NCBI RefSeq assembly: GCF_001050275.1
Contig: NZ_BBYA01000008.1
Location: 186,001-250,000, forward strand
Reading direction: 5' to 3'
Length of the DNA stretch: 64,000 nt
Source of the DNA: Leptolinea tardivitalis
GTDB taxonomy: Bacteria; Chloroflexota; Anaerolineae; Anaerolineales; Anaerolineaceae
In this document: piece after piece, positions 34,488 through 48,886 of the stretch
Numbering within the stretch: position 1 is the first letter of the stretch
How the letters are laid out: each line of letters begins with the position of its first letter
The notes under the pieces: model-generated
The model's database searches: none
The model's input: only the letters and a program-made list of their open reading frames with translations
What the model was told of the DNA's origin: nothing
Program-made: the position numbers and the translations under genes

Positions 34488-35036
34488 ATGAGCGAAACTG
34501 CAAAACAGCGTGTAATCAGCGCCTTAATTATTTTTGGTGTGATTGGATTGACTGCATTGTTGATCGCCAATCGTCAACAAATTCAAAAATTTGGATCTCT
34601 TGGTTACCCTGGTATTTTTCTTATAGCCTTGCTTTCCAGTGCCACTGTACTGATCCCACTTCCAGGGATCATGTTTACTACGGCGATGGGAATAGTATTC
34701 AATCCATTCTATGTGGCTGTGGCAGCAGGTCTGGGTGCTGGACTGGGTGAAATCAGCGGCTACATGGTTGGATTTTCCGGCCGTGAGCTGGTCAACAAGA
34801 CTGCCTGGCATGAGAAGGTGGAGGGTTGGATTAAGAAATATGGGGTCTGGGTAATTATGGTGATGGCCATTATCCCTAATCCGGCATTTGATCTGGTTGG
34901 CTTTTCCGCAGGTGTCTTAAAAATGCCACTCTGGAAATTTATCGTTGGGGCAGTAGTTGGCAATATCATCAAAATGATGCTTTTTGCGTATGGGGGAGCC
35001 GGGATTTTCAGTTTCATCCCCGCACTGGCCAGATAA
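34488..35036 (+). CDS. VTT-domain (DedA-like/SNARE-associated) membrane protein
   Basis: 182 residues with about five hydrophobic segments. The VTT fold is shown by the PLPGIMFTTAMGIVFNP loop (about 57-73), GAGLGEISGYMVGFSGRE (about 82-99), and the second half IIPNPAFDLVGFSAGVLKMPLWKF (about 128-151), with the family's buried prolines. VTT/DedA proteins are lipid scramblases or flippases in several systems; no substrate can be inferred. It is 15 bp downstream of udk, probably cotranscribed. The glycan operon promoter starts just beyond its stop. Confidence 0.85.
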   Translation: MSETAKQRVISALIIFGVIGLTALLIANRQQIQKFGSLGYPGIFLIALLSSATVLIPLPGIMFTTAMGIVFNPFYVAVAAGLGAGLGEISGYMVGFSGRELVNKTAWHEKVEGWIKKYGVWVIMVMAIIPNPAFDLVGFSAGVLKMPLWKFIVGAVVGNIIKMMLFAYGGAGIFSFIPALAR

Positions 35037-35046
35037 CTGGTCTTTC

Positions 35047-35075
35047 TTGGCAAATGGCCATTTGTCTACTATACT
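35047..35075 (+). promoter_or_regulatory. Promoter of the five-gene glycan operon
   Basis: TTGGCA (35047-35052), 17-bp spacer, TATACT (35070-35075), 37 bp before the ATG at 35113. The spacing is exact and both boxes are near consensus. Confidence 0.68.
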
Positions 35076-35112
35076 AATCCCCTGATGTAGAGAGATTATT
35101 CGATATCACTTC

Positions 35113-37176
35113 ATGGTTTCTATGAAAAAATTGACGATTTCTGAGCGCACAATACCTTTCGCGCTGCTATTGACATGCATTATTGCATATGGACTACTGA
35201 TCCCCTGGCTGGGTTTTTACTGGGATGATTGGCCGTATATCTGGTTCGCCAAAACTCTGGGCGCTTCTGGTTTTGCGGATGTTTTTTCTCACGATAGGCC
35301 CTTCCTTGCTCTGATTTATTCCATAAATTTGCCTATCCTGGGTACTAATCCTATCATCTGGCAGATATTTGCCCTGCTTTGGCGCTGGCTGGCCACTTTA
35401 ACATTCTGGAAATCATTCAGGTTGCTTTGGCCAGAGCGTCCGCATCAGGCATTATGGGCGGCTCTATTGTTTGCTGTTTATCCGGGTTTCAGCCAACAGT
35501 GGATTTCTGTCATCTATAGCGAAGCCTTTATCATCCTGACTGCCTTCCTGGCTTCATTGGGCTTGATGATGGCTGTTCTGCGAAAGAAGATTCCATTCTG
35601 GCCGGGGACACTTGCTGCTGTTTTACTGTCGATCTTCAATCTGTTTTCTACTGAGTACTTTTTCGGTCTTGAATTGTTACGACCGTTATTAATTTTTTGG
35701 ATTATCAGTGAATCGACCTCTGATTGGAAGACAGGAATAAAGAAAACCTCTCTGCAATGGATTCCCTATGGCATCGTTCTGGTGGTGTTCACCATCTGGC
35801 GGGTTTTCTTCTTCCAGTCTAATAATTATCAAATCTCTGCCATGGAATCGCTGGCGGCCACTCCTCAGGCAACCATGGTCGAATTATTAAAGACTCTGGC
35901 CTCCAATTTTGTCCTGGGTGGTTGGCTGGCCTGGAATCAGATATTTAGTCCACCCAATGCACTGGAATTTCAAATTCTTACAACCCGGCTTTTCTGGATG
36001 GTGGTACTGGCAGTTTTTATTTTCTCTGTCGTATACCTCTTACGGGTAAGAATTTCTGAAGAACCATCAAAGGAAGAAACCGACCTTCCAGAAAAGTGGG
36101 GATGGCAGGTTGCATTTCTTGGTGTTCTCGCTCTCTTGACCGGAGGCATTCCCTTCTGGATTGCCAACCTGCCATTAACACTGACGTTTCCCTGGAATCG
36201 ATTCACGCTGGCCCTTATGATGGGTTCCTGTTACCTTCTTGTAGGTTTGGCCGAGGTATTTATCCGAACTTCCAGACAGAAGGTTATCCTCCTGTCAATA
36301 CTGGTCAGTCTGGCAGCCGGATGGCAATTCTATAATGCCAATACATATCGGCGTGAATGGGAACAAAACAAGGACTTCTTCTGGCAATTGGGTTGGCGTA
36401 TTCCCGGGTTGAAGCCAAATACACTTTTGCTTACACACGAATTCCCCTTTAAAAGCTATAGCGATAATTCATTGACGGCACCGATTAACTGGATGTATGC
36501 ACCAGATTTCAAAGGCCGCGAGATGCCATACATGTTGAATTATCTGTCTGTGCGATTAAAGAATAGCTTGCCTTCCGCAAAACCCAACCAACCTGTGGAA
36601 CAAACCTATCGGGCATTGACATTCCATGGAAACACATCCAATTCTGTGGCATTGTACATGAATACAGGTGAATGCCTTAAGGTTATGGATCCTGTTTTCA
36701 CCAATGCTGATTCTGTCCCAGATTTGCCATATAAAATGGAACCAGCAATTTCGATCTCCAATCTATCTCTTATTGAGATCAATACAGAGAATCCGGTAAC
36801 ACCACCACCCCAGTATTTTCCCGAACCTGAACATACCTGGTGTTATTACTATGAGAAGGCTGACCTTGCCCGTCAAAAAGGTGATTGGCAGGAAGCTGCC
36901 CGGCTAGGTCAGGAAGCCATTGATAAAGGATTTGTTCCCAACAAGCCGAATGAGTGGATGGTCATGATTGAGGCATTTGTGCATGTTCAAAATTGGAAAC
37001 AGGCGAACAAATTGACTGAAGGTTCCTACGCTACCAGGCCTGAATTACGTCCGGCACTTTGTGCACTATGGGAACGGGCTGTGGCAGATGATCAATCTGA
37101 AAAGGCAAAAAAGAATCTGACGTATATTAAAGCGTATATCTCCTGTGGAAAACCAGTAGAATCAGGTGACAGATGA
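35113..37176 (+). CDS. GT-C-like polytopic membrane protein with TPR-like tail
   Basis: 687 residues. About ten to eleven transmembrane helices span residues 12-415. The first external loop carries FYWDDWPYIW (about 36-45), and acidic pairs in that loop are the catalytic signature of GT-C glycosyltransferases such as ArnT and PMT. The C-terminal 270 residues are soluble and end in a helical TPR-like stretch (about 570-680; YEKADLARQKGDWQEAARLG). It probably moves a sugar from a polyprenyl-phosphate donor made by the next gene onto an external acceptor. A second ATG at 35122 is an alternative start. The stop overlaps the next start. Function is inferred from topology and context. Confidence 0.75.
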   Translation: MVSMKKLTISERTIPFALLLTCIIAYGLLIPWLGFYWDDWPYIWFAKTLGASGFADVFSHDRPFLALIYSINLPILGTNPIIWQIFALLWRWLATLTFWKSFRLLWPERPHQALWAALLFAVYPGFSQQWISVIYSEAFIILTAFLASLGLMMAVLRKKIPFWPGTLAAVLLSIFNLFSTEYFFGLELLRPLLIFWIISESTSDWKTGIKKTSLQWIPYGIVLVVFTIWRVFFFQSNNYQISAMESLAATPQATMVELLKTLASNFVLGGWLAWNQIFSPPNALEFQILTTRLFWMVVLAVFIFSVVYLLRVRISEEPSKEETDLPEKWGWQVAFLGVLALLTGGIPFWIANLPLTLTFPWNRFTLALMMGSCYLLVGLAEVFIRTSRQKVILLSILVSLAAGWQFYNANTYRREWEQNKDFFWQLGWRIPGLKPNTLLLTHEFPFKSYSDNSLTAPINWMYAPDFKGREMPYMLNYLSVRLKNSLPSAKPNQPVEQTYRALTFHGNTSNSVALYMNTGECLKVMDPVFTNADSVPDLPYKMEPAISISNLSLIEINTENPVTPPPQYFPEPEHTWCYYYEKADLARQKGDWQEAARLGQEAIDKGFVPNKPNEWMVMIEAFVHVQNWKQANKLTEGSYATRPELRPALCALWERAVADDQSEKAKKNLTYIKAYISCGKPVESGDR

Positions 37177-38123
37177 TGTCTATCCCTTCTGGAATATCCG
37201 TAATCATCCCTGTATATAACAGTGCAGTTACTTTGCACGAGTTAATTAATCAATTGGGGACTGTCCTTCCTACGCTGGCATCAAGTTATGAAGCAATATT
37301 GATCAACGACGGATCCCGAGACAAGAGCTGGGAAATCATACAGGAGATTTGTAAGACGACTCCCTGGGTGCGGGGCGTCAATATGATGCGCAATTATGGA
37401 CAGCATAATGCTCTTGTTTGTGGGATGCGCCTGGCTTCTTTTGATATTACAGTAACAATGGATGATGACCTTCAACATCCTCCGGCAGAGATCCATAAGT
37501 TATTAAGCCCATTAGCCGAAGGGAATGATGTTGTCTACGGTATACCTAAAAAGCTGCCCCACTCTTGGTGGCGAAACGTATTTTCTCGAATGACAAAACG
37601 AATACTTGCGATGGTCATGGGTATCCCGACCATCAGAGATATCGGGGCATTTCGTGCTTTCCGAACTGAAATCCGCCGAGCATCAGACCTGTTCCAGAGC
37701 CCGACTGTGATTTTGGATGTATTGCTTTCCTGGGGGACTACCCGGTTTGCCACTGTGGAGGTTGATGAAGCCCCGAGGCAGGTTGGCCATTCCAATTACA
37801 ACTTCTCCAGGTTGGTATCTCAAGCTTTGTTGATTCTTACCGGGTTCAGCACAGTTCCTCTACGGATGACCAACTGGCTTGGATTTATTGCCACATTTTT
37901 CGGTTTTCTTGTGCTACTTTATGTATTGATACAGTATTTTATGGCCGGAAGTATCCCCGGTTTTCCATTTCTCGCATCTTTGGTCGCAATATTCTCAGGT
38001 GTACAATTATTTGCCCTGGGTATTTTTGGGGAATATCTCGCAAGGATATTTGACCGCAGTATGGAGCGGCCAACCTATGTAATTTCTGAGCAAATATCTT
38101 CACTCAAGGATAAATCTTCTTGA
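37173..38123 (+). CDS. Polyprenyl-phosphate glycosyltransferase (GT2, ArnC/GtrB-like)
   Basis: 316 residues. GT-A domain with VIIPVYNSAVTL and INDGSRDKSWEII, metal-binding TVTMDDDLQHPP (about 94-105), and AFRAFRTEI..A, then two C-terminal transmembrane helices (about 225-246, 260-282) and the GEYLARIFDRSMERPTYVI end typical of ArnC, GtrB and dolichol-phosphate mannose synthases. It should load a sugar from a nucleotide donor onto undecaprenyl phosphate at the cytoplasmic face. Its start overlaps the GT-C gene stop and its end overlaps the next gene, so the three are translationally coupled. Confidence 0.92.
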   Translation: MMSIPSGISVIIPVYNSAVTLHELINQLGTVLPTLASSYEAILINDGSRDKSWEIIQEICKTTPWVRGVNMMRNYGQHNALVCGMRLASFDITVTMDDDLQHPPAEIHKLLSPLAEGNDVVYGIPKKLPHSWWRNVFSRMTKRILAMVMGIPTIRDIGAFRAFRTEIRRASDLFQSPTVILDVLLSWGTTRFATVEVDEAPRQVGHSNYNFSRLVSQALLILTGFSTVPLRMTNWLGFIATFFGFLVLLYVLIQYFMAGSIPGFPFLASLVAIFSGVQLFALGIFGEYLARIFDRSMERPTYVISEQISSLKDKSS

Positions 38124-38812
38124 AAGTAGTAATTCTTCAACCGTCATACATTCCATGGCGGGGTTATTTTGACCAGATACAGACATCTGATTTGTTCATT
38201 TTTTATGATGATGTTCAATACGACAAAAGGGGATGGCGGAATCGTAATCGGATAAAAACCTCCTCCGGGCCAATCTGGCTTTCCATTCCTGTTTTCAATC
38301 GCGGTGCTCAAACAGAGCATATTCCAATCAATGAGATAAAAATTGTCTGGGACAGACCCTGGAACCATGAGCACTGGAATTCTATCAAATTAGCCTATAA
38401 GAAAGCGCCCTATTTCAACAAATATGCTGAAATGGTAGAAGGGTTTTATTCTGGTAAACCAGATTTACTGGCCGATTTCACGATTGAAACAACCATTCAG
38501 CTGGCACGTACCATTGGAATTGACCGGACACGATTCATGCGTTCATCAGAAATCCAGGGAGTGGAAGGCACCAAAACCGACAGACTGATCTCAATTCTTC
38601 AAAAAGTCGGTGCAACCCATTACTATTCTGGACCTTCTGCTCGTGATTATATTGAGAATGACAAATTTGCCGATGCGGGAATCAAACTGGACTATATGAC
38701 GTATGAATATCCCGAATATCCTCAACTTTACCCGCCTTATGACCCACAGGTCTCCATTCTTGATACTCTGTTTATGATGGGCGAAGATACTTTACAGACA
38801 ATCCGACGATAG
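38120..38812 (+). CDS. WbqC-like family protein
   Basis: 230 residues. ILQPSYIPWRGYFDQI at the N-terminus, FYDDVQYDKRGWRNRNRIK (about 28-46), the central TDRLISILQKVGATHYYSGPSARDYI and the C-terminal YPPYDPQVSILDTLFMMG are the WbqC family pattern. WbqC genes lie in O-antigen and other glycan loci; their biochemical role is not established, though a transferase on amino sugars has been suggested. The start is TTG at 38120, overlapping the previous stop (TTGA), with AAGGA nine bases upstream. Its position just before the methyltransferase and aminotransferase genes fits a sugar-modification role. Confidence 0.9.
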   Translation: MKVVILQPSYIPWRGYFDQIQTSDLFIFYDDVQYDKRGWRNRNRIKTSSGPIWLSIPVFNRGAQTEHIPINEIKIVWDRPWNHEHWNSIKLAYKKAPYFNKYAEMVEGFYSGKPDLLADFTIETTIQLARTIGIDRTRFMRSSEIQGVEGTKTDRLISILQKVGATHYYSGPSARDYIENDKFADAGIKLDYMTYEYPEYPQLYPPYDPQVSILDTLFMMGEDTLQTIRR

Positions 38813-38819
38813 AGGTTTT

Positions 38820-39461
38820 ATGTCAACCGATAAAATTGATATGAATGATATCCGAAGCTATTTTGCTGAAAAATTGGAACAACACGGTGCAACACCCCGC
38901 GGTGTCGATTGGAACTCAAATGGCGCTCAGGATACCCGGTTTATGCAACTTGCACGCATCATTGACCGGCCTGAACGCCCCTATTCATTACTTGATTATG
39001 GTAGCGGCTTCGGTTCGTTTTATGACTATCTGGTAAACCAGGGAGTCCGTCCTCAACGATATGTCGGGTTTGATATTGTGGAAGGCATGGTAGTAAAAGG
39101 GCGTGAATTGCACGCCGGTATAGAGGGCGTAGAGTTCTCGCAAACGGATGACAACCTGCCTGTTTGCGATTATGTTGTTGCCAGTGGAATCTTTAATATC
39201 AAGTTGGATACCGAATATGATACCTGGACCGAATATGTAATTAAAACCATCACCCGGATGAACGATCTGGCTGATCGCGGTTTTAGTGTCAACTTCTTGA
39301 CAAAATATTCTGATGCAGATCATATGCGGCCGGATTTATATTATGCCGATCCGGGTTATTTGTTTGATATTTGCAAACGTCGATTTTCTCGAAATGTAGC
39401 AATCTTGCACGATTATGATCTATATGACTTTACTCTTCTTGTTCGAAAAAAGCTGGATTAG
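38820..39461 (+). CDS. SAM-dependent methyltransferase
   Basis: 213 residues, Rossmann-fold class I methyltransferase. The SAM motif LLDYGSGFGSFYDYL (about 58-72) and VGFDIVEGMV (about 80-89, acidic residue for the ribose) are visible, then VASGIFNIKL at the motif IV position. It starts 7 bp after the WbqC-like gene with a GAGG ribosome site and is followed 11 bp later by the aminotransferase. Within this operon it most likely methylates a nucleotide-linked or lipid-linked sugar, but the substrate and the methylated atom are unknown. Confidence 0.84.
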   Translation: MSTDKIDMNDIRSYFAEKLEQHGATPRGVDWNSNGAQDTRFMQLARIIDRPERPYSLLDYGSGFGSFYDYLVNQGVRPQRYVGFDIVEGMVVKGRELHAGIEGVEFSQTDDNLPVCDYVVASGIFNIKLDTEYDTWTEYVIKTITRMNDLADRGFSVNFLTKYSDADHMRPDLYYADPGYLFDICKRRFSRNVAILHDYDLYDFTLLVRKKLD

Positions 39462-39472
39462 AGTTAAAACCT

Positions 39473-40606
39473 ATGACCGAGACTATTGTTGATTTCAATA
39501 AACCCTGTATCGTCGGTAAAGAATATGAATATATCGCTGATTCCATCAGAGAAGCGCATATATCCGGCGATGGTAAATATTCAAAGCTTTGCCATAGTTT
39601 GCTGGAAAAAGAACTGGGAGTGAAACGGGTTTTAACAACTCCTTCCTGTTCACATGCCCTTGAAATGACGGCCCTTCTTCTGGATATTAAACCCGGCGAT
39701 GAGGTCATCATTCCTGATTTTACATTTGTATCCACCGTCAATGCGTTTGTGCTGCGGGGAGCTACACCGGTTTTTATTGATATCCGGCCGGATACGTTGA
39801 ATATGGATGAGACCCGGTTGGAAGAATTGATCACAGAAAAGACTCGGGCGATTGTGCCTGTGCATTATGCAGGAATTGCCTGTGAGATGGATACCATCAT
39901 GTCTATCGCCAACCGGCATGGTATTCCTGTGGTGGAAGATAATGCCCATGGTTTGTTTGGCAAATATAAAAACCGCTGGTTGGGAACTATCGGTTGTATG
40001 GCTACACAGAGTTTTCACGAAACTAAAAACTTTACCTGCGGTGAAGGTGGAGCCATCCTTATTAACGATCCGGCATTAATTGAGAAAGCTGAAATTATCC
40101 GGGAAAAGGGAACAAATCGCAGCCGTTTCTTTAGAGGGCAGGTGGATAAATACACCTGGGTTTCTGTAGGATCAAGTTACCTGCTTTCAGACATTCTGGC
40201 CGGATTTTTGTACGCTCAATTGGAAGTATGGCAGGAAATTCAAGCCAAACGAAAATGGATCTGGCAAACCTATCATTCTGAATTGGCTGCCTGGGCGAAA
40301 TCCAAAGGTGTGGTTACTCCTTCTGTACCAGAGGGCATTGATCCTTCCTGGCATATTTATTATCTTCTTCTACCCGATTTGGAACAGCGTCAGGCGATGA
40401 TCACGCATCTTAAAGATGCCGGCGTAAATTCAGTTTTCCATTACTTGCCTTTGCATTTATCTGAAAAAGGGCGGGAATATGGCGGGAAACCGGGCGATAT
40501 GCCAGTGACAGAATCAGTGAGTGACCGTCTGGTTCGACTTCCTCTGTATTACGATATGGGCGAATTAGAAATGGAGCAGGTACTTAATGCTGTAACATCC
40601 TTCTGA
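39473..40606 (+). CDS. wecE: WecE/RffA-like sugar aminotransferase (DegT/DnrJ/EryC1 family)
   Basis: 377 residues, fold type I PLP enzyme. SGDGKYSKLCHSLLEKELGV (about 31-50), TPSCSHALEM (about 57-66), PDFTFVSTVNAFVLRGATPVF, DNAHG, and the PLP-lysine motif SFHETKNFTCGEGGA (about 180-194) match WecE/RffA, which converts dTDP-4-keto-6-deoxyglucose to dTDP-4-amino-4,6-dideoxygalactose. That keto sugar is the RfbB product, and rfbA and rfbB lie 6 kb away, so the precursor can be made. Downstream amino-group acylation enzymes are not in the window. It is the last gene of the operon; the exact product is inferred by family. Confidence 0.88.
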   Translation: MTETIVDFNKPCIVGKEYEYIADSIREAHISGDGKYSKLCHSLLEKELGVKRVLTTPSCSHALEMTALLLDIKPGDEVIIPDFTFVSTVNAFVLRGATPVFIDIRPDTLNMDETRLEELITEKTRAIVPVHYAGIACEMDTIMSIANRHGIPVVEDNAHGLFGKYKNRWLGTIGCMATQSFHETKNFTCGEGGAILINDPALIEKAEIIREKGTNRSRFFRGQVDKYTWVSVGSSYLLSDILAGFLYAQLEVWQEIQAKRKWIWQTYHSELAAWAKSKGVVTPSVPEGIDPSWHIYYLLLPDLEQRQAMITHLKDAGVNSVFHYLPLHLSEKGREYGGKPGDMPVTESVSDRLVRLPLYYDMGELEMEQVLNAVTSF

Positions 40607-40648: not shown

Positions 40649-41080
40649 ATGGATGAGAAAAAGAGTCGGCAGTACTTTCTTGATCAACATAGACGAGAGG
40701 TAATCTGGCAGATCTTGATTCCGGTTATCATTGGTGTGATGATCATGCTGGCTTTAGGACTGCTTTCAGCGCTTTCGTTGCAAACTGGAACTGATGCCAG
40801 TGTGCGGTGGGGGCATGTTGCCGCGATCTGGTTAATACTCCCCTTTTTTGTCATTGGCACCCTGCTCCTTTTTTTACTCATCGGTCTCATTTTAGGTGTT
40901 ACCAAAATAACCGAAACACTTCCTGATTATGCTTCCATTGTTCAGATGTATGCCCGCATTCTTGCTCAGAAAACACTTGTCTTGGCTAATAGATCCACCA
41001 GACCAGTAATTATTATTCATTCTGTCAGGGCATCAATAAAACGCTTCTGGTTGACTCTTCGTATCTTATTTCTGGGATAA
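40649..41080 (+). CDS. Two-helix membrane protein of unknown function
   Basis: 143 residues with two strong transmembrane helices (about 19-42 and 56-84) joined by a short external loop, and a basic amphipathic C-terminal part (about 90-143). I recognise no family. There is no ribosome site, but an extended -10 box ends six bases before the ATG. It is followed 35 bp later by a 64-residue membrane protein on the same strand, so the pair may form a small operon. Confidence 0.68.
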   Translation: MDEKKSRQYFLDQHRREVIWQILIPVIIGVMIMLALGLLSALSLQTGTDASVRWGHVAAIWLILPFFVIGTLLLFLLIGLILGVTKITETLPDYASIVQMYARILAQKTLVLANRSTRPVIIIHSVRASIKRFWLTLRILFLG

Positions 41081-46457: not shown

Positions 46458-46928
46458 AGATGAATACCTGGTCTCGCTATGGGCCGGCCACCTTTGCTTA
46501 GAAACAGATATGGGTAATCAGATACGAGCATCAACAGGCTAACTTGCCTGTGTTTGCCAAACCCCCGGTGATTTGATGAGCAGGTTGGAAGGTTGCTACG
46601 ATACAGTGTATATAACAGTTATCTTACGAAACCTGTCACACACTTCTGTAAATACAGGGCTGCAAAGAATGCATCGCGGAAATAATAAAACCCTGTCTAT
46701 TAACTGCTTTGCTGCCAACTTCTACTCCCATTCCGGGAGGGATGATTCTGAAATACTCAAAACGTTTCAAAGTAGAAGGCAATCTGTGAAAATATCCACA
46801 GAAAAAAGTTTAAGGTCTGCCTGTATATTATTATACATTAATTTTCATGATGTGCAGAAAGCTGTGAAAGGTTGGTTGTAAAAATCTACTATAATCAAAC
46901 CCAGATAAATTTGACGGTCGGAGGCGGA
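46458..46928 (+). promoter_or_regulatory. Divergent intergenic region recX / rfbB with -10 box
   Basis: About 470 bp. TATAAT at 46890-46895 lies 33 bp before the rfbB start; no matching -35 is found. The region also holds a short stem CTCCC/GGGAG near 46725-46740 and one DnaA-box-like 9-mer (ATATCCACA, 46792-46800), too isolated to mean an origin. A 102-codon plus-strand frame at 46573-46881 has no ribosome site and no family resemblance. Otherwise I see nothing definite. Confidence 0.45.
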
Positions 46929-48017
46929 ATGGTTAACTGGCTGGTAACCGGCGGCGCCGGTTTTATTGGATCGAATTTTATCCACCATATCCTTAAATCT
47001 CGTGAAGATATTAATGTTTTTAATTTTGATCTTCTGACATACGCGGGTAATCTTGAAAATCTATCTGACATAAGGAATAACGACCGATATCATTTCATTC
47101 GAGGTGATATTTGCGATCGGAAACAGGTAGATGAAGCACTTCTAGATAATAAAATTACCACAATTGTGCATTTTGCCGCCGAAACCCATGTTGACCGCTC
47201 TATCCTTGGTCCGATGCAGTTTGTGATCACAAATGTCAATGGAACGGCAACATTATTGGAAGCAGCCCGTGATTACTGGTTAAACAATCCAGAAAAACCA
47301 GCCAGAGAAACACGGTTTCACCACATATCTACTGACGAAGTATTCGGAAGCTTGAAAAAAGGTGAACCAGCCTGGACGGAAGATTCTCCCTACGCACCTA
47401 ATTCGCCTTATGCTGCATCCAAAGCTGCGAGCGATCACCTGGTGAGGGCGTATGGCCACACGTATGGTTTGCCGGTTACCATCTCAAATTGTTCCAATAA
47501 TTATGGTCCGTATCAATTCCCTGAAAAATTGATGCCCGTGGTTATTTTAAATGCGTTGAGTGGAAAAAGTATTCCTGTCTACGGAGATGGCCAACAGATC
47601 CGTGATTGGCTTTATGTGGAAGATCACTGTGAAGCCATTGAAAAAATCATTCTGCAGGGGAAGCCGGGAGAAACATATAACATCGGCGGTGATAACCAAC
47701 CTACGAATCTCGCGATTGTAAAGACAATTTGTCAATTGCTGGATGAATTGGTTCTGGATTCTCCCTATAAGCCATTTGAATCGTTGATCACATACGTTGC
47801 AGACCGACCTGGTCATGACCGGCGGTATGACATGGACAGCCATAAGATCCATCAGTTACTGGGTTGGTCTCCCCGTTTCACACTAGAGACAGGCTTGCGA
47901 AAAACTGTCCAGTGGTATCTGGATAATCTGACCTGGGTTGAAGGGATTACAGGGAAAACCAATTACCAGGATTGGATGCAAAGGAACTATACTGGCAGGG
48001 GAGGCAATAATAAATGA
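46929..48017 (+). CDS. rfbB: dTDP-glucose 4,6-dehydratase
   Basis: 362 residues, extended SDR fold. Converts dTDP-glucose to dTDP-4-keto-6-deoxyglucose. NAD site [16 protein letters not shown] at the N-terminus, [11 protein letters not shown], catalytic [25 protein letters not shown] with the Tyr-Lys pair, and the [11 protein letters not shown] end are all diagnostic. The start at 46929 is chosen because GGAGG lies four bases upstream and the NAD motif begins directly after; the frame opens earlier at 46872 but crosses the -10 box. It overlaps rfbA by 4 bp. rfbC and rfbD are not in the window. Confidence 0.95.
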
Positions 48018-48886
48018 AAGGGATTATTTTGGCCGGCGGGTATGGAACCCGTCTTTATCCGCTTACTATGGCGATCAGCAAACAATTGCTGCCTGTGTAT
48101 GATAAACCTATGGTGTACTATCCGCTTTCAACGCTGATGCTTGCCGGAATCCGCGATGTGTTGATTATCGCCGCGCCGGAAAGCATGGATGCATTTCAGC
48201 GCCTGTTGGGGGATGGATCGCAATGGGGTATGCACTTTGACTATGCCGAGCAGCCATCTCCGCGTGGACTGGCGGATGCATTTATTCTTGGCCGTGATTT
48301 TGTTGGTTGTGAACCGGTGGCATTGATTCTGGGAGATAATATTATTTATGGTTCCGGACTGGTGGAAAAATTACAATCGGCGGCAAAAAACAATGATGGC
48401 GCTGTCATCTTTGCCTACCCGGTGCGTGACCCTGAACGCTATGGTGTGGTCGAATTTGATGATTCTACCGGGCGGGTGATTAGCATAGAAGAAAAACCGA
48501 AAAATCCCCGCTCGAATTTTGCCGTTCCAGGAATCTACTTTTTTGACGAAACAGTATGCCAGAAGGTGGAAAACCAGAAGCCTTCAAAACGGGGTGAATT
48601 GGAAATAACCGATCTGATTCAAAAATACCTCGATGCGAACCAATTGCGGGTCGAGGTGCTGGGTCGAGGCATTGCCTGGCTTGATGCCGGCACACAGGAA
48701 TCATTATTGCAGGCTGCCAATTTCGTACAGGTGGTGGAAGAACGTCAGGGTTGGATGATTTCATGCCCGGAAGAAATTGCTTACCGCATGGGATATATTG
48801 ACCGTGAAGGGCTGAGGAGGCAGGCGGAGAAGGTCAGCGCGAATCAGTATGGACAATATTTACTGCGGCTGCTGGATGATGAGTAA
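48014..48886 (+). CDS. rfbA: Glucose-1-phosphate thymidylyltransferase
   Basis: 290 residues, the normal RfbA length. Makes dTDP-glucose from dTTP and glucose-1-phosphate. [16 protein letters not shown] (about 3-18), [17 protein letters not shown] (about 23-39), ILGDNIIYG (about 107-115), [27 protein letters not shown] and the C-terminal [14 protein letters not shown] are canonical. The GGGGAGGCAATAATAA leader gives a strong ribosome site inside the end of rfbB, with a 4-bp overlap. The product feeds RfbB and, through it, probably the WecE-like aminotransferase at 39.5 kb. Confidence 0.96.

Follow-up and report, generated by a model that had tools for sequence, protein, structure and literature searches.

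The window analysed here, a 64,000-nucleotide stretch of the Leptolinea tardivitalis genome (contig NZ_BBYA01000008.1; genome size 3.69 Mb), contains a run of five genes encoding a GT-C-like membrane glycosyltransferase, a GT2 glycosyltransferase, WbqC, a class I S-adenosylmethionine (SAM) methyltransferase (MT) and the aminotransferase WecE. We favour, with moderate confidence, a reading in which the product of the operon is a 4-amino-4,6-dideoxygalactose (Fuc4N) that is N-acylated, methylated and placed outside the cell, with WbqC acylating the 4-amine of the deoxythymidine diphosphate (dTDP)-linked sugar. In sister operons the position of WbqC is occupied by a WecD-like N-acetyltransferase, and the sugar is therefore probably N-acylated by WbqC first. 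A preliminary description of the locus had proposed a methylated 4-amino-4,6-dideoxy sugar; its general purpose is retained, but it lacks the main step, this initial N-acylation.

From the observed gene content, gene order and pattern of replacement we infer the following route. RfbA and RfbB, encoded outside the operon, would provide dTDP-4-keto-6-deoxyglucose, which WecE would convert to dTDP-Fuc4N. This part is well supported by profile matches: WecE exceeds the curated cut-offs of PRK11706 (557 vs 375) and TIGR02379 (520 vs 435) and matches DegT at 5.3e-90, RfbB exceeds that of TIGR01181 (487 vs 365) and RfbA that of TIGR01207 (454 vs 361). Related clusters include RfbB-RfbA in their own run in L065/L117, L066, L112-L114, L119 and L126, which supports the earlier suggestion that rfbA-rfbB is the source of the keto sugar. 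WbqC would then close an amide on the 4-amine in place of a WecD-like acetyltransferase, a step that the gene arrangement makes likely. Tentatively, we propose that WbqC is a ligase of the class I aminoacyl-tRNA-synthetase fold that, like BshC in the bacillithiol pathway, would activate a carboxylate, most likely that of an amino acid. The MT would then act on what WbqC has made, methylating it at the added group, like NmbA, or at the sugar itself, like VioM. GT2 would load the finished sugar onto polyprenyl phosphate and, after flipping by a carrier, GT-C would transfer it to an acceptor outside the cell.

The slot between the GT2 and WecE genes

In the enterobacterial common antigen route, WecE makes dTDP-Fuc4N and WecD acetylates its 4-amine. 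A WecE ortholog (E ≤1e-110) is present in 53 of the 147 genomes of our family survey, with 36 loci arranged as GT2, slot, WecE. The slot contains WbqC at 18 loci (16 with the MT, 2 without this MT), a WecD-like GCN5-related N-acetyltransferase (GNAT) at 14 and another methyltransferase at 2, and is empty at 2. The rest of the 53 genomes comprises 3 contig ends and 14 genomes of genus g17, where WbqC lies directly behind WecE in 13 and the remaining locus is cut by a contig end. WbqC and WecD were found together at none of the family WecE loci surveyed, and genome-wide searches of the 14 WecD-slot genomes (completeness 84-99%) recovered neither WbqC (0/14) nor the MT (0/14). All 28 MT-bearing genomes among the 53 carry WbqC, and 4 more have WbqC without the MT. 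The 14 sister operons place a WecD-like GNAT in the same position; in the L. tardivitalis operon, WbqC and the MT replace WecD, and the proposed GT2/GT-C route would handle a monosaccharide, with no lipid-linked repeat.

A GNAT of ~245 residues sits between GT2 and WecE in G017 and G022. For the three slot GNATs that were scanned, the best NCBIfam match is dTDP-4-amino-4,6-dideoxy-D-galactose acyltransferase (WecD; 1e-12, 1.6e-31 and 1.5e-27), with scores below the curated WecD cut-off (48, 97 and 110 vs 219 bits). A profile built from the first two recovered the remaining 11. In G513 and G514 (L148, L158), a class I methyltransferase from a different family (one of the two was scanned) fills the slot behind RfbB and an RfbA-like gene; this enzyme perhaps N-methylates the 4-amine directly. 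The slot varies at one chromosomal site, since genera g1 and g16 share the downstream neighbours M143 (a 143-residue membrane protein) and PfkB: next to WecE-M143-PfkB, genus g1 has WbqC and the MT, G516 has WbqC, and G018 and G517 are empty. Slot contents differ between species in both g20 and g16.

These loci bear on an alternative in which WbqC leaves the 4-amine alone and either alters another group or supports transfer, the amine being free or N-methylated. The empty slots of G018 and G517 suggest that a free amine may be tolerated; the methyltransferase in the slot of G513 and G514 fits as well, as do a GNAT beside WbqC in G434 and the Bacteroidota copies of WbqC, both described below. 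The absence of WbqC from the 14 WecD genomes argues against it, as does the closeness of WbqC to amine-making genes in unrelated loci, and we consider this alternative quite unlikely.

The trees are consistent with N-acylation between the WecE and GT2 steps. In the GT2 tree (34 of the 36 slot loci; G018 and G517 removed by a spacing filter), the WecD and WbqC types are separated by a branch with 100/99 support, and the two loci with the other methyltransferase fall on the WbqC side. In the WecE tree (48 rows; truncated G501 left out; G487, G387, G506 and G464, at contig ends, not included), explaining the distribution of the WecD type takes 3 changes, of which at least 2 are forced by well-supported branches. 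The GT2 proteins split by slot and the WecE proteins less cleanly, a pattern that fits a slot enzyme working between the WecE and GT2 steps: WecE would see the same substrate throughout, while GT2 would have to accept the finished sugar.

The gene set was also compared across 41 genomes, the window's own and 40 relatives. The full order GT-C, GT2, WbqC, MT, WecE is present in 11 of them, the window's own included. Individually, the MT occurs in 16, WbqC in 17, GT2 orthologs (E ≤1e-70) in 17, WecE orthologs (E ≤1e-100) in 17 and members of the GT-C family in 28, often with numerous copies per genome. WbqC is present in all 16 MT genomes and lies within 2 kb of the MT in 15, the exception being G019. 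Beyond the family, GT2-WbqC-MT-WecE recurs without an adjoining GT-C gene in G035 (family f12) and L062 (an Anaerolineales metagenome-assembled genome). WbqC, MT and WecE lie inside ~8 kb in Sterolibacterium and Acidovorax, and in Ancylobacter the MT is near WecE, with no WbqC in the stretch examined. The idea of a single pathway, put forward in the preliminary description, stands because the genes co-occur in the same order in these 11 genomes, with WbqC and the MT together filling the slot at 16 of the 36 family loci.

It is conceivable that the five genes adjoin one another for historical reasons alone, with WbqC and the MT serving another pathway. Genus g17, where the pathway is split in two loci, would fit this: WecE-WbqC (13 genomes) is separate from GT-C-GT2-MT, the latter read in one locus, L082, where the MT is next to GT2 and GT-C. 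Co-occurrence is nevertheless kept in g17, with WbqC in 14/14 genomes and the MT in 12/14, and together with the recurring gene order this makes a purely historical association very improbable.

One of the related clusters contains an additional gene. In L117 (same as L065), a 314-residue protein is encoded between the MT and WecE (L117:2580-3524); its DegT match is faint (1.5e-3, below cut-off), and it is possibly a degenerate or divergent pyridoxal phosphate enzyme. Gaps of about equal size lie between the MT and WecE in L119, L121, L126 and L127.

Predicted fold of WbqC and the nature of the modification

WbqC matches PF08889 with an E-value of 3.6e-77 and a score of 259.5 vs a gathering score of 21.3. 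Its most conserved polar residues are Q7, D30, R42 and D215. The literature searched for WbqC yielded no function: one paper calls WbqC functionally uncharacterised and two suggest that it may act in O-antigen production. Our WbqC model, predicted from 12 sequences, has a pLDDT of 92 and a pTM of 0.89. Among the 50 structural matches listed, it aligns best with Bacillus subtilis BshC (4wbd; VIA-align Z 13.9, root mean square deviation 3.2, 216/230 residues, 12% identity), followed by class I lysyl-tRNA synthetase (Z 11.9) and then matches with Z ≤8.5. The list consists of BshC, class I synthetases and phosphopantetheine adenylyltransferases, with no acyltransferase among them. The predicted structure shares the class I synthetase-type Rossmann catalytic domain found in 4wbd.

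In bacillithiol synthesis, BshC joins an amino acid to an amino sugar through the sugar's amine, and in some bacteria the SAM enzyme NmbA then N-methylates that amino acid (PMC5372718 and PMC6282198, both in part). The best structural alignment of WbqC is the point of likeness. The two differ in that they have no sequence-profile link and different sizes (230 residues vs 541 in 4wbd), and the acceptor of WbqC would be a nucleotide sugar. A Pfam search with WbqC down to E 0.1 did not return PF10079 (BshC), a family found in 0/101 Chloroflexota genomes. A motif resemblance between WbqC and BshC (YxSGPxARxYI...F..AGI vs FIAGPGEIxYW) was noticed by eye; it coincides with the top-scoring local match between the trimmed C-terminal halves, which is not significant, and we do not use it as evidence. 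N-aminoacylated dideoxy amino sugars do exist, including N-acetylglycyl- and N-acetyl-D-alanyl-Qui4N as well as aminoacyl forms of Qui3N (PMC3210612, in part).

The MT is characterised mainly by its cofactor-binding region. Pfam gives weak class I SAM matches (best 3.6e-4, below cut-off), and the residues G61, G63, G65 and D85 of the SAM-binding motif region are invariant in 13/13 sequences. Compared with solved methyltransferases, the MT profile matches BamL best (1.9e-6, residues 51-100 only); the best matches also include phosphoethanolamine N-methyltransferases and others, through the SAM-binding part only. Known systems offer two precedents: NmbA methylates the cysteine nitrogen of bacillithiol (PMC6282198, in part), and the methyl group on the N-acylated Qui4N of Pseudomonas syringae, a modified viosamine, requires VioM (PMC3927599, in part). 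We lean slightly towards methylation of the added group rather than of the sugar.

The viosamine island of P. syringae (VioA-VioB-VioM) resembles an alternative in which WbqC N-acylates the same amine from a donor bound to coenzyme A (CoA) or acyl carrier protein (ACP), or from a formyl donor, and the MT then O-methylates the sugar. There, as proposed here, a dTDP-4-amino-4,6-dideoxy sugar is N-acylated, methylated and put on a surface protein. The requirement for VioM is in line with this alternative, and the WecD slot swap fits any N-acyl donor. According to PMC3927599, the N-acyl group of the island comes from an ACP system and VioB, WbqC is not among the seven genes listed and the transferase is VioT, with 1,173 residues. 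The predicted fold of WbqC argues against such a donor, since its closest matches are class I synthetases and BshC rather than any acyltransferase. In addition, the annotations of 21 plasmid neighbourhoods of WbqC include neither an ACP nor a ketoacyl synthase, the Chloroflexota loci not having been checked for them. Acylation from CoA, ACP or a formyl donor is unlikely in our estimate, and an amino acid activated by WbqC itself is the option that we prefer.

WbqC in other genomic settings

We encountered WbqC (PF08889) in five phyla of bacteria and, among archaea, in a single record (Natrinema). Among 400 Chloroflexota genomes, 26 carry WbqC, 25 of them above the cut-off. We counted 28 Chloroflexota loci, excluding the window's own copy and one weak match, and 19 of them have an amine-making gene (a DegT aminotransferase or PIG-L deacetylase) within 3 kb. 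The number of amine-making gene starts per 10 kb falls with distance from WbqC, from 2.03 (≤1.5 kb) through 0.87 and 0.29 to 0.15 (5-7.5 kb) and 0 (7.5-9.5 kb); the DegT and PIG-L profiles were partly built from WbqC neighbours, and identical profiles were applied at all distances. Fifteen of the loci have no MT. Nine of these have an amine-making gene within 3 kb, two being of the WecE type, and the proximity is thus not just a reflection of the WecE cassette.

Plasmids present a similar picture. From 57 plasmid records with WbqC, we read 21 annotated loci (17 by choice and 4 more), with near-copies and unannotated records outside the count. By annotation, 16 of the 21, 14 of them among the first 17, have an amine-making gene within 5 kb; by profile, 11 of the first 17 have one within 3 kb. 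Of the four later loci, two have a DegT gene and two, from Bacteroidota, have no sugar genes. The plasmid of Streptomyces sp. NBC_00239 (L110:4246-8496) encodes a PIG-L deacetylase, WbqC, a GT4 enzyme and a class II aminoacyl-tRNA-synthetase-like protein in a row, flanked by dCTP deaminase and TauD-like genes. By analogy, this looks like a small-molecule cluster built on bacillithiol logic: BshA is a GT4 enzyme and BshB a PIG-L enzyme, and these are the same classes as those beside WbqC in the PIG-L/WbqC/GT4 trio.

Other copies were noted in passing. The window's genome has two further WbqC copies (L133:8387-10249 and L134:9577-17409), one adjoining a PIG-L deacetylase gene, the other grouped in one run with DegT and sugar dehydratase-like genes. 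A Proteus WbqC locus, outside the plasmid count, contains a DegT-like gene. The wbq genes were named in Escherichia coli O121/Shigella dysenteriae 7, whose O antigen contains N-acetylglycyl-Qui4N; a literature search on this link returned no paper, and the Proteus mirabilis WbqC gene as a DNA query had no match in ecoli_genomes.

Several points weigh against N-acylation by WbqC, or against the details proposed for it. The swap is, judging from the GT2 tree, essentially one old split rather than repeated independent exchanges, which makes it strong but not decisive evidence. A Fisher test that ignores kinship (p = 1.6e-6) overstates it for this reason. No amine-making gene is found within 3 kb in 9 of the 28 Chloroflexota loci, or within 5 kb in 5 of the 21 plasmid loci. 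The two Bacteroidota plasmids (L183:2000-5642, Parabacteroides; L186:1646-5645, Bacteroides) have dapB, an S26-family signal peptidase gene, lepB and WbqC in a row, in this order, with no sugar genes near, and therefore at least this branch of WbqC has another setting. In G434, a PseH-like sugar N-acetyltransferase (GNAT; 3.3e-20, below cut-off) is encoded beside WbqC, indicating that WbqC could do something other than acylate the amine. Regarding the ligase mechanism, Foldseek with the WbqC model returned nothing below E 0.01 (the best, 0.015, is to an unrelated binding protein), and hhalign of WbqC against BshC gave probabilities of 0.1-0.3 with full and trimmed profiles, the BshC side having only 3 sequences. 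Since neither comparison shows a significant link, we do not file WbqC as a BshC; going by the model, it may work like one.

It is also possible, although rather doubtful, that WbqC in most branches is a further class of the class I synthetase fold, beside BshC, that aminoacylates nucleotide-bound amino sugars, with partner enzymes that N-methylate or N-acetylate the amino acid. If so, it would account for the dideoxy amino sugars with aminoacyl groups that many O antigens contain, and a methylated aminoacyl-Fuc4N would be expected on an Anaerolineaceae surface glycan. For the Bacteroidota copies beside dapB and lepB, this reading would imply a branch with another acceptor. If the likeness to BshC holds, a single fold would account for the attachment of amino acids to amino sugars in surface glycans as well as in thiol cofactors. 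The gene set is a variant of known amino-sugar export systems, and its WbqC part could be more than that if WbqC is indeed a ligase. With WbqC in the WecD slot, the question of its function comes down to a single assay on a known substrate, dTDP-Fuc4N.

Operon layout, export and the GT-C protein

The five genes form one run on the forward strand (35113-40606), with every overlap or gap between the called open reading frames no longer than 11 bp. The genes, their overlaps and the promoter are as described in the preliminary account of a five-gene run behind a near-consensus promoter. The promoter is one of the two best among 20 regional matches (10/12); as 18.5 matches are expected by chance, the scan was dropped as evidence on its own. 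We credit the promoter because its elements are kept in two congeners (G001 and G003), where the -10 element ACTATACT is identical and the -35 element is TTGGCA or TTGATA, while the remaining spacer has diverged.

Table 1 Features of the operon and associated genes in the window
Feature	Position	Strand	Remark
Sigma-70-type promoter TTGGCA-17-TATACT	35047..35075	+	Motif scan and conservation in G001, G003
GT-C-like membrane glycosyltransferase with TPR/PPR-like C-terminal tail (~residues 576-676)	35113..37176	+	Tail by profile; model pLDDT 59
Codons of W37-D38-D39-W40, acidic motif just after first membrane helix of GT-C	35221..35232	+	Invariant 7/7
GT2 polyprenyl-phosphate glycosyltransferase, ArnC/PgfS-like, two predicted membrane helices	37173..38123	+	4-bp overlap with GT-C gene
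WbqC (PF08889), TTG start; proposed amide-forming ligase for 4-amine of dTDP-Fuc4N	38120..38812	+	4-bp overlap with GT2
Class I SAM methyltransferase (MT)	38820..39461	+	7-bp gap after WbqC
WecE/RffA, dTDP-4-amino-4,6-dideoxygalactose transaminase	39473..40606	+	11-bp gap after MT; curated cut-offs
VTT/DedA-family membrane protein directly upstream; operon membership uncertain	34488..35036	+	PF09335 1e-19; UptA weak, 2.2e-5
143-aa membrane protein (M143), 42 bp past WecE; operon membership uncertain	40649..41080	+	Between WecE and PfkB
RfbB, dTDP-glucose 4,6-dehydratase, outside operon; likely keto-sugar source	46872..48017	+	TIGR01181 cut-off
RfbA, glucose-1-phosphate thymidylyltransferase	48014..48886	+	TIGR01207 cut-off

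Both flanks carry membrane protein genes. The VTT/DedA family includes undecaprenyl-phosphate transporters; this gene adjoins the operon only in the two congeners. In genera g1 and g16, M143 is retained in the interval from WecE to PfkB; the remaining loci searched gave no match to it, many of them ending ~1.5 kb past WecE.

In systems of the ArnC-ArnT, PgfS and GtrB type, a two-helix GT2 enzyme makes a polyprenyl-phosphate sugar that is used outside the cell by a GT-C enzyme. The GT2 protein matches PF00535 (1.5e-25), but its scores are far below the equivalog cut-offs of ArnC (PRK10714, 170.7 vs 529) and PgfS (162.5 vs 500); by these matches it is an ArnC-like GT2 and not ArnC. The GT-C protein, unlike those of the known systems, bears a tetratricopeptide repeat (TPR)-like tail, and the operon contains no ArnE/F-type flippase. 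A small ArnF/EamA-like transporter, below the ArnF cut-off, is encoded between WecD and WecE in the WecD-type locus of G494 (L160:6489-6929) and is a candidate flippase for such systems.

The membrane part of the GT-C protein has no Pfam match up to E 0.1. Its W37-D38-D39-W40 motif, for which we assume a catalytic role as in other GT-C enzymes, follows directly after the first membrane helix; the acidic residues looked for in this protein are therefore present. Residues 1-409 of the model align with STT3, AglB, PglB and PMT (OST/AglB/PMT type) at Z 10-12, values that helical models can reach by chance, and the confidence of the model is low (pLDDT 59, pTM 0.41). In the same model, residues ~569-687 align with TPR and pentatricopeptide repeat (PPR) proteins, and in a profile search the tail matches designed PPR proteins (3.5e-5). 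A GT-C membrane domain combined with TPR is also found in the human mannosyltransferases TMTC1-4 (PMC7801869, in part), which are eukaryotic and are likened here by architecture, not by sequence.

The fusion had been called unusual, a view that does not hold in light of this parallel and of the number of homologs: the TPR-tailed GT-C family has 8 copies in the window's genome and matches in 28/41 genomes. It is a large unnamed family in Anaerolineaceae. In distant genomes, proteins of 516-534 residues are encoded downstream of the MT (L067:8987-10534, L068:9810-11408, L069:8999-10600); two of the three were scanned and have 7-9 predicted membrane helices and no Pfam match, and they are perhaps transferases that replace the TPR-bearing GT-C there. 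Copies of the GT-C gene in the L. tardivitalis genome (G000) were noted at C1:19620-21593, C1:101951-105952, C3:13638, C4:16482, C10:64951 and C14:14235, besides the one in the window (35113-37176), and two are in tandem.

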